Shown: positions 8,693 to 15,068 of the stretch, one piece after another
How positions within the stretch are numbered: the stretch's first letter is position 1
Layout: the number at the start of each line of letters is the position of its first letter
Assembly: GCA_018303705.1 (NCBI GenBank)
Contig: JAGVXQ010000007.1
Span: 1,021-16,088 of the forward strand
Origin: Candidatus Woesearchaeota archaeon
GTDB lineage: Archaea; Nanobdellota; Nanobdellia; SCGC-AAA011-G17; JACPNG01
Direction of reading: 5' to 3'
Length of the DNA: 15,068 nt
Translations under genes and position numbers: made by a program
The notes under the pieces: generated by a model
What the model saw: the letters and a program-made list of their open reading frames with translations, nothing else
The model's database searches: none
Told to the model about the DNA's origin: nothing

Positions 8693-9553
8693 ATGACAAA
8701 ATGTAGATTGAGAGATGTTTTGATTGATGCAGCAAGGGTTGCAGGGGAAATACAACTAGGGCATATAGAAGATGGCGATATATCTGCTAGAAGCAAGTAT
8801 GGTGGCAATGATACCCTTGACATGGTAACCATAGCAGACATAAAAACTGAAGAAGCATTAAGAGAATTCTTTGACAGAACTATGCCAGAGTATAATGTAA
8901 TAGGGGAGGAATCTGGTGGCACTTACAATGGCAATGGAAAGGTAATCTTAATAGACCCTTTAGATTGCACCAAAAGCTACATGGCAAAACTGCCAAATTT
9001 TGGCCCGATAATTGGAATATATGATAAAGGAAAGAACATTGCCGGGATAGAGCATAATGTAACCAAGGGCATAATGTATGTTGCTACGGAAGAGAGCGGA
9101 TTTGAAAGGATTGGACCCAGGGAAGAGATACCAAAAGACGCCATATACCTTGAGAGCAAGGTTTCTGGGCAATATTCATTTGCGCATAAACTGGCTAAAG
9201 CTGTAAAGGAAGAATTTCAAAATTATCCAATAATAGTAAATTCGCAAAACGTGCTCAACAAGGCAAGGGTCTTTAATAGTGAATGGAAGGCTTTCTTCCA
9301 TGCAGGGCAGGCAAGGCATGATATAGCTGCTGTTCCAATATTTTCAAGGCTTAGTGGAGTAAAAGCAACAGACCACAACGGCATACAGTATGAACTCTTA
9401 AACCCTGAGATTGAAATTGAAAGGTACAACAGTGGAAAGAATGAGGCCATATATTCAAACACTATACTGGTTTCGCAGCCAGACTGCCAGGAACGCTTCC
9501 TCGAGGTATTAAACAAGTTCAAAGAAGAATTGGACGAGGCAAGAAAAAGATGA
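8693..9553 (+). CDS. Inositol monophosphatase-family phosphatase (IMPase/FBPase/CysQ superfamily)
   Basis: Metal-dependent phosphomonoesterase of 286 residues. Metal ligands in the expected order: TIADIKTEE in the N-terminal part, GEES (71-74), DPLDCT (88-93) and ARHDIAAVPIF (208-218, the Asp of the usual WDxAA motif). The second motif reads DPLDCT where the family consensus is DPxDGT, an uncommon Gly-to-Cys change. The C-terminal AGG turn is replaced by SGVKATDHNG. The substrate cannot be told: inositol-1-phosphate, fructose-1,6-bisphosphate, NADP and PAP phosphatases share these motifs. I prefer the second of two ATGs because of its spacing to the TATA box. Its stop overlaps the next start (ATGA), so the two proteins are translationally coupled. 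Confidence 0.88.
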   Translation: MTKCRLRDVLIDAARVAGEIQLGHIEDGDISARSKYGGNDTLDMVTIADIKTEEALREFFDRTMPEYNVIGEESGGTYNGNGKVILIDPLDCTKSYMAKLPNFGPIIGIYDKGKNIAGIEHNVTKGIMYVATEESGFERIGPREEIPKDAIYLESKVSGQYSFAHKLAKAVKEEFQNYPIIVNSQNVLNKARVFNSEWKAFFHAGQARHDIAAVPIFSRLSGVKATDHNGIQYELLNPEIEIERYNSGKNEAIYSNTILVSQPDCQERFLEVLNKFKEELDEARKR

Positions 9554-10323
9554 AGTTTCTTTTTTCGGATGTTGATGGAACATTGGTACATAAAACTTGT
9601 GGGCAAAAACATATTATCCAGGTGCCTGGAGAAAACAGATACATTAGCAGATATGCAATAAACTCTCTTGAAGAGATTAGAAGAAAATTGCCTGTTGCAA
9701 TAATTACTGGAAGAAGGCTGTCAGGATATGAAAGGCTATCTGCTGCAATACCTCATGATTATGCAATCATAGAACATGGATGTGTAATATTGGACAGAGG
9801 CAAGCCCGACATTGAATGGGCCAGCAGACTTAAGGAAGCTGTAGGAATATTTGGATGCTATAATGGACTGTTATGGGATTATGCAAAAAGCCTTGAAAGA
9901 GAAGGCTACAAGACAGACTATGATGGGCGGCTTGCAAGTGTTAGAGTGTTTCTTGACAAACCCGATAACTTAAATGAAGAAGAAAAACTTGGGCTTGAAA
10001 CAAGAGTTGTGAAAGAAGCAGGCCATTTGCTCAGGACAACAAGAAACCAGGAAATGCTTGACATAATTCCAAAAGCAGGTGGAAAAATAAATGCCAGCAA
10101 TTTCATTTTATCAAGAAGAGTGTTGGAGATAAATGATGCCATTGCCTTGGGTGATGATGTTAACGATGAAGATCTGCTATTGGAAGCAGGATTTCCAATG
10201 TGCCCTGGCAATGCAGTATGTTCAATAAAAGATATTGTGAAAAAACGCAATGGTTATGTTTCAGTTAGCAATGACCATGAAGGAACTATAGACATGTTAA
10301 ATGAGGTTTTTAAGCATGTTTAA
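9550..10323 (+). CDS. HAD-superfamily phosphatase, IIB (Cof/sugar-phosphatase) type
   Basis: 257 residues with all four HAD motifs: DVDGT (7-11, nucleophile Asp7 and acid/base Asp9), TGRR (53-56), a lysine in DIIPKAGGK (171-179) and GDDVNDEDLL (201-210). The C2B cap lies between motifs II and III, as in sucrose-, trehalose-6- and mannosyl-3-phosphoglycerate phosphatases and phosphomannomutase relatives. It is cytosolic and Mg-dependent. The first codon overlaps the IMPase stop by 4 nt, and its end overlaps the following kinase gene. A phosphatase of a sugar phosphate or compatible-solute precursor is plausible, but the substrate is not determined. The gene is intact. Confidence 0.9.
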   Translation: MKFLFSDVDGTLVHKTCGQKHIIQVPGENRYISRYAINSLEEIRRKLPVAIITGRRLSGYERLSAAIPHDYAIIEHGCVILDRGKPDIEWASRLKEAVGIFGCYNGLLWDYAKSLEREGYKTDYDGRLASVRVFLDKPDNLNEEEKLGLETRVVKEAGHLLRTTRNQEMLDIIPKAGGKINASNFILSRRVLEINDAIALGDDVNDEDLLLEAGFPMCPGNAVCSIKDIVKKRNGYVSVSNDHEGTIDMLNEVFKHV

Positions 10324-10972
10324 GCAAGATATCATGGAGAGCATCATTGGCTTCATCAAGAAGAACCTTCCTAATGGCGGAACAATATGTGTAACAGGTT
10401 GTGGCAGGGCTGGAAAGACAACGCTTGCAAATGACATCGTTTTAGGCTTTGGAAAAAATGAATCAGGTAGGTATCCATTTGATTGTTTGCATACGCCGAT
10501 AGAGTACAGAAGGAAAATTATGGAAAGCAGGGGCATAGTAATAACTGGGTCGCATCCGGATACTGTAATAAAAGAAATGGCACTTAAGACAATAAAATCA
10601 ATAAAAAATGGTGAGGATGTCCCGATTTATGAAAGCGTATTAGTTGGAAATGATGTTGAATACAAAACAATTGGGATGTACAGGAACAAAAAATACAACA
10701 TAATTGATGGGCTTACAGCAATGCACCATTCCGTTGGCAAATTGTATGACATTGTCATATTCATGGAATGTGATGAAAAAACAGAACTGCAAAGAAGGCT
10801 TCTAAAGGAAGGGTATGAGAGGAACCAAAACCCTGAAGAAATAATGAAGGTGTTTCCATTAAGAAGAAAGCAATATGAAGAATATGTTTTAGTGTACAAA
10901 AATGATGCAACCATTGTAATAAACACTACTGATGGGAATAATATTTCTATAACATTTAACAAAACACCCTAA
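10316..10972 (+). CDS. P-loop kinase of the uridine kinase/phosphoribulokinase-like family
   Basis: 218 residues from the chosen start. The Walker A loop GCGRAGKTT is at 28-36, after CVT. HPDTV and the later IIDGLTAMHHSVGKLYDIVIFM resemble the substrate-Asp and the E/D-G-hhxh strand of uridine kinases. RRLLKEGYERNQNPEEIMKVFPLRRKQYEEYV resembles the lid and the R-x(n)-YxxY helix of that family, ending in DATIVIN, like the usual ADIII strand. It most likely transfers the ATP gamma-phosphate to a nucleoside or sugar hydroxyl. ATGs at 10301, 10316 and 10334 are possible; the first overlaps the HAD gene by 23 nt, the second by 8 nt. It ends the three-gene cluster and converges on the 96-aa gene 28 nt away. 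Confidence 0.8.
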   Translation: MFKQDIMESIIGFIKKNLPNGGTICVTGCGRAGKTTLANDIVLGFGKNESGRYPFDCLHTPIEYRRKIMESRGIVITGSHPDTVIKEMALKTIKSIKNGEDVPIYESVLVGNDVEYKTIGMYRNKKYNIIDGLTAMHHSVGKLYDIVIFMECDEKTELQRRLLKEGYERNQNPEEIMKVFPLRRKQYEEYVLVYKNDATIVINTTDGNNISITFNKTP

Positions 10973-13577: not shown

Positions 13578-14913
13578 ATGATTATTTTGAGAAATCTGTT
13601 AAGGAATAACGGTGCAAAAGAGCGGGCCAAATCAAGGACAAGAAAGCTAAGCATAAAGGAAGGCTCTGCATACAGCATAAGCGATGGCTTTGGCATTAAG
13701 TACATTACCCCATATGCACTTGCAATGAATGCAAGCAATTCTCAGATAGGCTTGTTAAGCTCAATACCAACATTGCTCGGCAACATCTCTCAAATATACA
13801 CAACAAAGTTGATGGAAAAATATCCAAGAAACCAGATATTGTTCATAGGGGCTATGCTTCAGGCATTTATGTGGCTTCCAGTTCTTGGGGTAGGAATATT
13901 CTTTTTCTTCTTTAATTCAAGCAACAGCTTCTCAATAGACCTGCTCATACTTTTTTATACCATGCTTGTTGCATTCGGCTCTTTTATAAGCCCTGCATGG
14001 AATTCCTTGATGAAAGACATAGTTACAAGAAATAGCGGAAAATATTTTGGCACTAGGAACAGGGTATGTGGCCTTGTGGCACTGGTTTCTATGCTTTTGG
14101 CAAGTTTCCTGCTGGATCATGGCATTTATTTTTCGCTCATTATCAGCAATAATGCTGAAAAACTATTATGAGCCAAGGCTAAAACTCGAAAAGGAGTATT
14201 ATTTTACATTCTTGCAGTTTATTAAGAATATACCCAAAAGCAATTTTGGAAAATTTGTGGTCTTCGTATCATTATCCACATTGGCAACCCAAATAGCATC
14301 GCCTTTTTTTGCTGTTTACATGCTTCGAGAACTCAATTTCAGCTATACATTTTGGATATCTACAGTAATCTCGAGCATATTGGCATCACTGCTTTTCATG
14401 CCCATATGGGGGAAATTTACAGACAAGTATGGCACTGTCAAAACATTGAAGATTACAGGCATTTTCACACCACTAGTGCCTTTTTTGTGGCTTTTATCCC
14501 CGCTTTTATATAAGATTAATTTCTACCTGCTATTGGCTTACATAATAATTGTTGAATCATTTTCAGGCTTCATATGGGCAGGCTTTAATCTTGCAGCAGG
14601 CAATTTCATCTATGATGCTGTGACAAGGCAAAGAATGGCACTTTGCATTGCATACTTTAGCGTTATAAATAGCATAGGTTTTTTCATAGGGGCGAGTTTT
14701 GGCGGCATTGTATCATCAATGTCATCAATACCATTTGGAATAAGCCCTTTGATATTTGTCTTTTTTATCAGCGGCATTGCAAGGTTCTTGGTCTACATTT
14801 TTGTCAGCCCAACAATAAAGGAAGTAAGAACTGTAAAAGACCTTGACATAAAAAACATGCACAAGGACCTGCTTGATTTTAAGCCAAAAAAGATACTTAA
14901 CCATTTGAAATAG
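13578..14913 (+). pseudogene. MFS transporter split by a frameshift
   Basis: Two overlapping frames encode the halves of one major facilitator protein. The first (13578-14171) has the basic N-terminus, then YSISDGFGIKYITPYALAM, the helices around LLSSIPTLLGNISQ, PRNQILFIGAMLQA, and the conserved loop KYFGTRNRVCGLVALVSMLLASFLLD; after about 14115 it runs into non-MFS sequence and a stop. The second frame becomes MFS-like from about AFIFRSLSAIML (14119 on), through the central loop KNYYEPRLKLEKEYYFTFLQ, and carries helices 7-12 to the stop at 14911-14913. Joined, they give about 440 residues, a normal MFS length, but the helix before FRSLSA seems short, so bases may be missing rather than one added. 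Substrate unknown. It could be a real pseudogene or a sequencing error; no stop codons occur elsewhere. Confidence 0.8.
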
Positions 14914-14920
14914 AAATTAA

Positions 14921-14927
14921 TTTAAAT
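14921..14927 (+). promoter_or_regulatory. TATA-like box of the tRNA-Ser gene
   Basis: TTTAAAT is centred at 14924, 27 nt before G1 of the tRNA (14951). That is the spacing seen from TATA box to ATG in the leaderless genes of this window, so transcription may begin at or within a few bases of the mature 5' end. Confidence 0.55.
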
Positions 14928-14980
14928 CGCCTTTGACCATGATTTCCTATGCCGCGGTCGCTTAACCTGGTAGAGCGCAA

Positions 14981-15000
14981 ATCTTTTTTTAAGAGCGCAG
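14981..15000 (+). other. 20-nt tRNA intron at position 29/30
   Basis: GCGC (14975-14978) pairs with GCGC (14995-14998), a 4-bp central helix. It is flanked by the 3-nt bulge AAA (14979-14981) and, on the other strand, AGG (14999-15001). Inside is TCTT/AAGA (14982-14985/14991-14994) with a T5 loop. Cutting after the second base of each bulge, as the archaeal splicing endonuclease does, removes exactly 20 nt and restores a perfect anticodon stem. An outer helix is not evident, so it is the relaxed form of the motif. The intron also creates an 8-bp direct repeat AGAGCGCA (14972-14979 and 14992-14999). Confidence 0.8.
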
Positions 15001-15008
15001 GCCTGGAA

Positions 15009-15021
15009 CTAGGTAACTGAA
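15009..15021 (+). other. 13-nt tRNA intron near position 37/38
   Basis: Between stem halves GC (15001-15002) and GCTTG (15023-15027) lie 20 nt where a loop of 7 is required, so 13 nt must be removed. Cuts at 15009-15021 put the intron at the canonical 37/38 site with the 3' bulge AAA (15020-15022). Three neighbouring placements (15006-15018 to 15008-15020) yield the same mature loop CTGGAAA. The central helix of the bulge-helix-bulge is poor (C15003-G15019 and G15005-C15017 pair, the others do not), so the exact ends are uncertain. Confidence 0.6.
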
Positions 15022-15068
15022 AGCTTGTTTCCGCAAGGATATCTCGGTTCAAATCCGAGCCGCGGCGA

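Follow-up and report, generated by a model that had tools for sequence, protein, structure and literature searches.

A serine tRNA gene at the very end of an archaeal contig raises the question of whether it is a working gene that happens to be disrupted by two introns, one of them in the anticodon stem, and, if so, in what order and by which enzyme its transcript would be spliced. The locus lies in a window of 15,068 nucleotides (the whole stretch of DNA that was analysed), which runs to the end of a 16,088-base contig from a 615 kb, 70% complete genome of a Candidatus Woesearchaeota archaeon. Proteins encoded in the window include FtsZ, a TCP-1-type chaperonin, Spt5, L11, S2, a class II tRNA synthetase, and an IF-2/EF-Tu-like factor, a set consistent with an archaeon. 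A HAD-like hydrolase gene (9550-10323) and a uridine-kinase-like gene (10301-10972), both on the forward strand, share 23 bases, read in different frames. Directly upstream of the tRNA, the forward-strand frames 13578-14171 and 14047-14913 overlap in different frames and both match MFS_1; this transporter gene appears, from its sequence, to be frameshifted, by error or by decay. About 30 bases 5' of the tRNA gene, at 14921..14927 on the forward strand, stands TTTAAAT, which we take to be TATA-box-like. Here, evidence is presented that in this Woesearchaeota-like archaeon the locus is probably (with a probability of roughly 0.9) a working tRNA-Ser(GGA) gene disrupted by two archaeal introns of the bulge-helix-bulge (BHB) type.

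The Rfam tRNA model RF00005 spans exactly positions 14951-15067 and scores 37.7 bits there, the cut-off being 29. A serine tRNA model, R1, built from three spliced serine tRNAs of the source genome, gives 86.7 bits for the same stretch, the gene's own spliced form being one of the three source sequences. The gene ends one base short of the contig end and looks whole despite this position, because both acceptor strands pair fully. Its parts are as follows, with the basis of each assignment in brackets:

14951..15067, forward strand: probable two-intron tRNA-Ser(GGA) gene, 117 nt as precursor and 84 nt once spliced (Rfam RF00005)
14951..14980, forward strand: exon 1, with the acceptor 5' strand, the D-arm, and positions 26-29 (sequence, solver)
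14975..14978, forward strand: 5' strand, GCGC, of the intron 1 BHB central helix (positions 24-27, that is, part of the D-stem plus position 27)
14981..15000, forward strand: intron 1, 20 nt, at position 29/30 in the anticodon stem (stem register, intronless relatives)
14982..14994, forward strand: inner hairpin of intron 1, UCUU-UUUUU-AAGA, 4 bp (predicted pairing probability 0.87-0.91)
14995..14998, forward strand: 3' strand, GCGC, of the intron 1 BHB central helix (pairs with 14975-14978)
15001..15008, forward strand: exon 2, 8 nt, positions 30-37, with the anticodon GGA at 15005-15007 (sequence, solver)
15009..15021, forward strand: intron 2, 13 nt, at the canonical position 37/38 (solver; relatives with 37/38 introns)
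15022..15067, forward strand: exon 3, starting with position 38 (sequence)
15023-15027, forward strand: anticodon stem 3' strand (exon 3, sequence)
15028-15042, forward strand: variable arm (exon 3, sequence)
15043-15059, forward strand: T-arm (exon 3, sequence)
15060-15066, forward strand: acceptor 3' strand, followed by the discriminator G at 15067 (exon 3, sequence)

When the exons are joined, inspection of the sequence finds Watson-Crick pairs at all 7 acceptor, 5 anticodon-stem, and 5 T-stem positions, a loop CTGGAAA, a variable arm of three pairs, and a discriminator G. Assembled by hand and with the solver, the mature 84 nt read GCCGCGG-TC-GCTT...GAGC-G-CAAGC-CTGGAAA-GCTTG-variable arm-CTCGG-TTCAAAT-CCGAG-CCGCGGC-G. 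The class II variable arm, the discriminator G, the GGA anticodon, and helices that are complete once spliced are together those of an archaeal tRNA-Ser(GGA). When the anticodon region is shuffled by mononucleotide 2000 times, the solver score of the real sequence is reached once. The sequence-only reading of this DNA had proposed two introns at sites 29/30 and 37/38 and a GGA identity, all of which are supported; it had further held that removing 13 nt leaves the serine loop CTGGAAA, and this is indeed the loop of the spliced product. Annotation is affected: ARAGORN misses the gene at 14951-15067 in a default run and, in intron mode, reads it as Ser(TGA) with a single 33-nt intron. A single 33-nt intron was rejected, since the stem left behind, CAAAT/GCTTG, would contain a mismatch and the anticodon would not be GGA.

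The comparison with relatives is based on searches of R1 against genomes of the order (41) and of the family (12), four of which (G000, G008, G010, and G011) are in both sets. The tRNA sample was composed of the longer listed matches, many short ones, and 55 stretches from named genomes that are matched by the 3' part of the serine tRNA, 39 of these 55 being from Woesearchaeota and most of the others from further DPANN or unnamed archaea. Among the matches listed, this amounted to 186 unique tRNA sequences, of which 163 were solved and 23 were not, about half of the unsolved being non-serine by inspection; because the sample was drawn by similarity, the counts given below are not rates per genome. 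Loci L211-L216 stand outside the later set, as their genes were already in the sample, and nine further loci are outside the 186, eight of which (all but L275) were solved or tried. The scoring of the solver rewards BHB pairing and so biases the splits it chooses in that direction. A first solver gave our gene as a one-intron UGA tRNA, while under a second scoring GGA and UGA tie. A general solver left, among non-serine tRNAs, L015 and L019 without a solution, returned implausible ones for L008 and L016, and, owing to a limit on length, tried our gene with one intron only.

Among the matches listed, 50 other unique GGA genes were solved, 21 with no intron, 10 with one, and 19 with two. In 15 of the 50, the automated solver places an intron at 29/30 or 30/31 together with one at 37/38, as in our gene; doubtful among these 15 are L164, L172, and L183, which the first solver resolved differently, and L076, which looks like a D-arm intron. 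Two-intron solutions were likewise returned, among the matches listed, for unique genes with the anticodons UGA (6, excluding the tie of our gene), GCU (4), and CGA (6, of which 2 have introns at 30/31 and 37/38). The predicted spliced anticodon arm, GCAAGCCTGGAAAGCTTG, is found exactly in 5 of the 21 intronless GGA genes among the matches listed. In the family, both introns are present in the GGA genes of G000, G006, and G010, the 29/30 intron only in those of G002 and G004, and the 37/38 intron in those of G007 and G003 (the latter with an extra insert); the GGA genes of G001, G009, and G011 are intronless, and no GGA gene was identified in the family genomes G005 and G008. G009, G010, and G011 belong to one genus, and the GGA gene of G010, which has both introns, equals the intronless gene of G011 at 80 of 83 positions when spliced. 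Comparison of these sequences suggests that both introns were gained or lost between close species within this genus, and, given their mixed presence across the family, the introns are seemingly gained and lost with ease.

Of the two proposed introns, the second has the weaker motif. It lies at the canonical position, 37/38, and is closed by the anticodon stem, which exists in full only after removal of intron 1. As GAA occurs at both of its ends, four registers are possible for its boundary, all of which give the identical product. The central helix (15003-15006 with 15016-15019) keeps 2 of 4 pairs (C-G, UxU, G-C, GxA) in place of a 4-bp helix, and excision of intron 2 is, for this reason, less certain than that of intron 1. 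Among the matches listed, the 73 introns at 37/38 (ours included) comprise 37 with four pairs, 33 with three, and 3 with two; 7 of the 73 have UxU at pair 2, and 16 have GxA at pair 4. The length of intron 2 had been taken to be near the small extreme, a view that does not hold in this clade, where 46 of 128 introns (ours included, among the matches listed) are 13 nt or shorter, with a minimum of 10 nt.

The incomplete helix of intron 2, along with a predicted folding that shows no intron 2 motif, would be expected if the locus were a decaying pseudogene in which the splice motif of this intron has been lost and the copy is no longer matured. Such decay is at odds with the exons, in which every helix is intact, and with the intron of the tRNA-Ser(UGA) of the same genome (L018), which likewise has 2 of 4 pairs; among the matches listed, these two genes supply 2 of the 3 two-pair introns at 37/38. 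Moreover, tRNA model searches found no second GGA gene, and hence no intact tRNA-Ser(GGA) elsewhere, in this 70% complete genome. A pseudogene is thus considered unlikely, and a working gene remains the preferred reading.

The identity of the anticodon depends on where intron 2 is cut. If the cut were at 33/34 (removing 15005-15017), the product would be a tRNA-Ser(UGA) with the loop CTTGAAA, and because its solver score equals that of GGA, the GGA assignment rests on comparison with relatives. The sequence-only reading had missed this possible cut, as well as the two lost pairs in the central helix of intron 2. Among serine-loop solutions with one or two introns, those removing 14981-15000 rank at the top, and the second cut ties between GGA at 37/38 and UGA at 33/34; a wider solver run placed UGA first for this gene. 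The UGA cut is nonetheless rejected as very improbable, because a tRNA-Ser(UGA) is present elsewhere in the genome at L018, the 33/34 site is unused in the rest of the 163 solved genes (among the matches listed), and the CAAGC/GCTTG stem mostly goes with GGA, being present in 23 of the 50 unique GGA genes versus 2 of 112 genes with other anticodons (among the matches listed). The best matches to the spliced form point the same way, as they were solved as GGA (L031 at 79/84, its own anticodon being ambiguous, then L138, L100, and L083 at 77/84), whereas the best UGA gene matches at 75/84. L031 is the GGA gene of G007, the closest relative by identity of the splicing endonuclease subunit, EndA (77%); it has only the 37/38 intron, also permits a UGA reading by inspection, and is identical to L084, a tRNA gene in a named Woesearchaeota record.

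For intron 1 of the presumed tRNA-Ser(GGA), the anticodon stem itself fixes the boundaries. The claim that removal of 14981-15000 restores a CAAGC/GCTTG stem is upheld, since no other register gives five Watson-Crick stem pairs when the cut is shifted by up to 3 bases; the alternative cut 14980-14999 gives CAGGC/GCTTG with one G-U pair and 2 of 4 BHB pairs. As in a BHB motif, a 4-bp central helix (GCGC/GCGC) is set between 3-nt bulges, AA^A on the 5' side and AG^G on the 3' side. Inside it lies a helix of 4 bp and outside it, in the canonical register, one of 0 bp, so that the motif is not a strict two-sided BHB and is a relaxed one. An out-of-register outer helix, GGU/GCC, appears in the predicted fold with a probability of 0.59-0.60, and the intron 1 helix as a whole is predicted to be well formed. 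Among the matches listed, 42 introns were solved at 29/30 or 30/31 (ours included), some of which may have been brought into the set by the solver's preference for BHB pairing; 30 of them are fixed in register by the stem, and of their 120 central-helix cells, 118 are paired in the BHB register versus 15-55 at nine other registers. Central pairs covary in the 30/31 introns (G-C/A-U; C-G/G-C/A-U; C-G/U-G/A-U/U-A), and 0 of 2000 strand shuffles match the observed pairing. For the 29/30 introns, the observed pairing is reached by 241 of 2000 shuffles, a control that says little because the strands there hardly vary. The gene, its exon and intron layout, the sharing of this layout by relatives, and the paired and partly covarying helices of intron 1 type are thus read from sequence.

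A false 20-base duplication at assembly, which the 8-base direct repeat AGAGCGCA flanking the insert (14972-14979 and 14992-14999) and the location at a contig end might bring to mind, is hardly credible, since the insert copies its neighbour only over those 8 bases and the introns of relatives carry GCGT or GTGT where ours has GCGC, as base pairing predicts and duplication does not. The repeat therefore follows from the palindromic pairing strand. Intron gain by target-site duplication at AGAGCGCA was rejected on the same GCGT or GTGT of the relatives, and a mobile or phage origin was set aside, there being no match among phage records.

Other tRNA genes encountered in the course of this work are also disrupted. 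In the same genome, a tRNA-Ser(CGA) (L022, 1501-1597, reverse strand) has a 13-nt intron in the anticodon stem at 30/31, with a central helix of 4 pairs and an outer helix of 3 bp. The solver further places an intron at 43/44 in a tRNA-Val(GAC) (L012, 1501-1589, forward strand) and one at about 27/28 in a tRNA with the loop CTTTGGA (Gln; L009, 1501-1591, reverse strand), for which ARAGORN differs. In G007, L036 (397-476 of G007:C27) is the 3' part of a tRNA-Ser(CGA) that has no recognisable 5' part in the preceding 396 bases, and a single pattern search of this 73% complete genome for the 5' part gave no match; a split gene, a large intron, and a pseudogene are candidates. The T-loop of L036 is GTCCAAAT in place of GTTCAAAT. 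By inspection, two class II tRNA genes of relatives (L230, 1501-1609, and L119, 4193-4315, both forward strand) appear to be interrupted by an insert around the T-loop, in L230 probably alongside a 37/38 intron.

We infer expression of the gene, cutting and order of splicing of its transcript, and decoding by its product as follows. In the transcript, GCGC of intron 1 would pair with the exon GCGC at positions 24-27, above the 4-bp intron hairpin, and this fold would block formation of the D-stem and the anticodon stem. The splicing endonuclease would then cut after 14980 and 15000 and a ligase would join the exons, whereupon the freed anticodon stem, CAAGC/GCTTG, could form and become the outer helix for intron 2, which would be cut after 15008 and 15021 despite its imperfect central helix. 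The mature tRNA-Ser(GGA) would presumably read UCC/UCU.

Removal of intron 1 first, and hence an ordered pathway, had been proposed in the sequence-only reading, and the two lines of evidence that bear on this differ. First, the anatomy of the introns favours it. Among the matches listed, the 29/30 introns have an inner helix of at least 2 bp in 22 of 22 cases and an outer helix in 0 of 22, whereas those at 37/38 have an outer helix in 73 of 73 (the anticodon stem, by construction) and an inner helix in 10 of 73; introns at 30/31 are mixed in this regard. The stem intron is thus self-supporting and the loop intron needs the very stem that is interrupted, so that an order with intron 1 first appears favoured. 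Second, predicted folding is mixed. Because the intron 1 central helix uses two D-stem bases, the D-arm and the intron 1 motif are mutually exclusive; in the precursor, the intron 1 helix has a probability of 0.82-0.83, the D-stem 0.09-0.10, and the anticodon stem at most 0.003, whereas the mature form gives the D-stem 0.86-0.93 and the anticodon stem 0.80-0.98. With intron 1 alone removed, the anticodon stem is predicted at about 0.02 and the intron 2 helix at no more than 0.002, and folding itself therefore shows no good intron 2 substrate in this gene. Across 28 two-intron genes (ours included, among the matches listed), the median probabilities in the precursor are 0.53 for the intron 1 helix and 0.00 for the intron 2 helix. 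Removing intron 1 makes the intron 2 helix more probable in 14 of the 28, less probable in 0, and leaves it unchanged in 14; removing intron 2 makes the intron 1 helix more probable in 12 of the 28 and less so in 5 (both among the matches listed). Because taking out intron 2 can favour the intron 1 helix as well, folding alone does not force an order. Removal of intron 1 first thus appears favoured by anatomy and less clearly by folding.

That closely spaced tRNA introns are removed in order has been published before. The description of tRNAscan-SE 2.0, a search method, justifies searching iteratively on the ground that where two archaeal introns lie close together one must go before the BHB of the second can form (PMC8450103). 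In the red alga Cyanidioschyzon merolae, multiple tRNA introns are removed in order, with that at 37/38 last (PMC3978253), as would be the case here; the enzyme there is eukaryotic, and the order is experimental, unlike the inferred order of the present gene.

The sequence-only reading had also expected a splicing endonuclease of broad specificity. This expectation is weakened, in that the only splicing endonuclease gene detected in the genome, which is outside the window, encodes a single alpha4-like EndA subunit. The protein is a single-unit subunit of about 180-200 aa with catalytic residues, as is characteristic of the alpha4 type; its residues 53-199 align gap-free to Methanocaldococcus jannaschii 1a79, and in a further alignment, residues 28-199 of the model stand against chain residues 9-179. 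By sequence, the enzyme looks like the narrow alpha4 type. Neither PF01974 at E values up to 10 nor an EndA profile gave a convincing second (beta) subunit, and the profile has one match in each of 9 genomes. The alpha query picks up the Nanoarchaeum equitans beta chain (3iey_B) at 4.2e-11, yet a divergent beta may have escaped these searches. Over cut-off, PF01974 has exactly one match in 38 of the 41 order genomes, two in G042 (which has 6% contamination), and none in G014 and G036. G014 is rated 100% complete and has no PF01974 match, yet a tRNA-Ser(GGA) gene with two introns seems to be present in it.

Endonuclease and intron types are described as having co-evolved, relaxed introns being handled by (alpha-beta)2 or epsilon2 enzymes (PMC6379350, PMC12397907). 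It is conceivable, if rather doubtful, that Woesearchaeales break this rule and splice multi-intron pre-tRNAs by a single-gene alpha4-like enzyme that has neither a beta subunit nor the CSL/ASL-type loop of broad-specificity endonucleases, which bears a conserved lysine close to the active site. Stem and loop introns would then be complementary half-motifs, the former with an inner helix of its own and the latter with a borrowed anticodon stem, and the stem-first order would be obligatory. This single-enzyme, obligatory-order proposal is held tentatively because G014 has no EndA match and folding only partly favours the order.

The sites 29/30 and 30/31 and the presence of several introns per tRNA are established for archaea, and in the crenarchaeal Thermoproteales two or three BHB-type introns per gene are described (PMC4090602). 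Crenarchaeota are another lineage and are described with (alpha-beta)2 endonucleases, whereas one alpha-type gene was detected here. N. equitans and ARMAN-1/2 are small DPANN-type archaea listed with several introns per tRNA (PMC4033280), and differ in the enzymes described for them, which are (alpha-beta)2 and epsilon2. In the Asgard Atabeyarchaeia and Freyarchaeia, an unrelated lineage, 92-95% of tRNA genes have an intron and more than half carry several, frequently at non-canonical sites (PMC11291895). Among the open-licence papers listed, no description of tRNA introns of Woesearchaeota was found; one paper that came up deals with group I introns. The two-intron tRNA-Ser(GGA) is real, well supported, and of a kind known from other archaea, and it adds a large uncultured archaeal group to those in which tRNA genes are disrupted in this way. 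The question worth testing is the enzyme more than the gene: a clade with many relaxed introns, in which only alpha4-like genes were detected, would be either an exception to the rule or the holder of an unrecognised partner.
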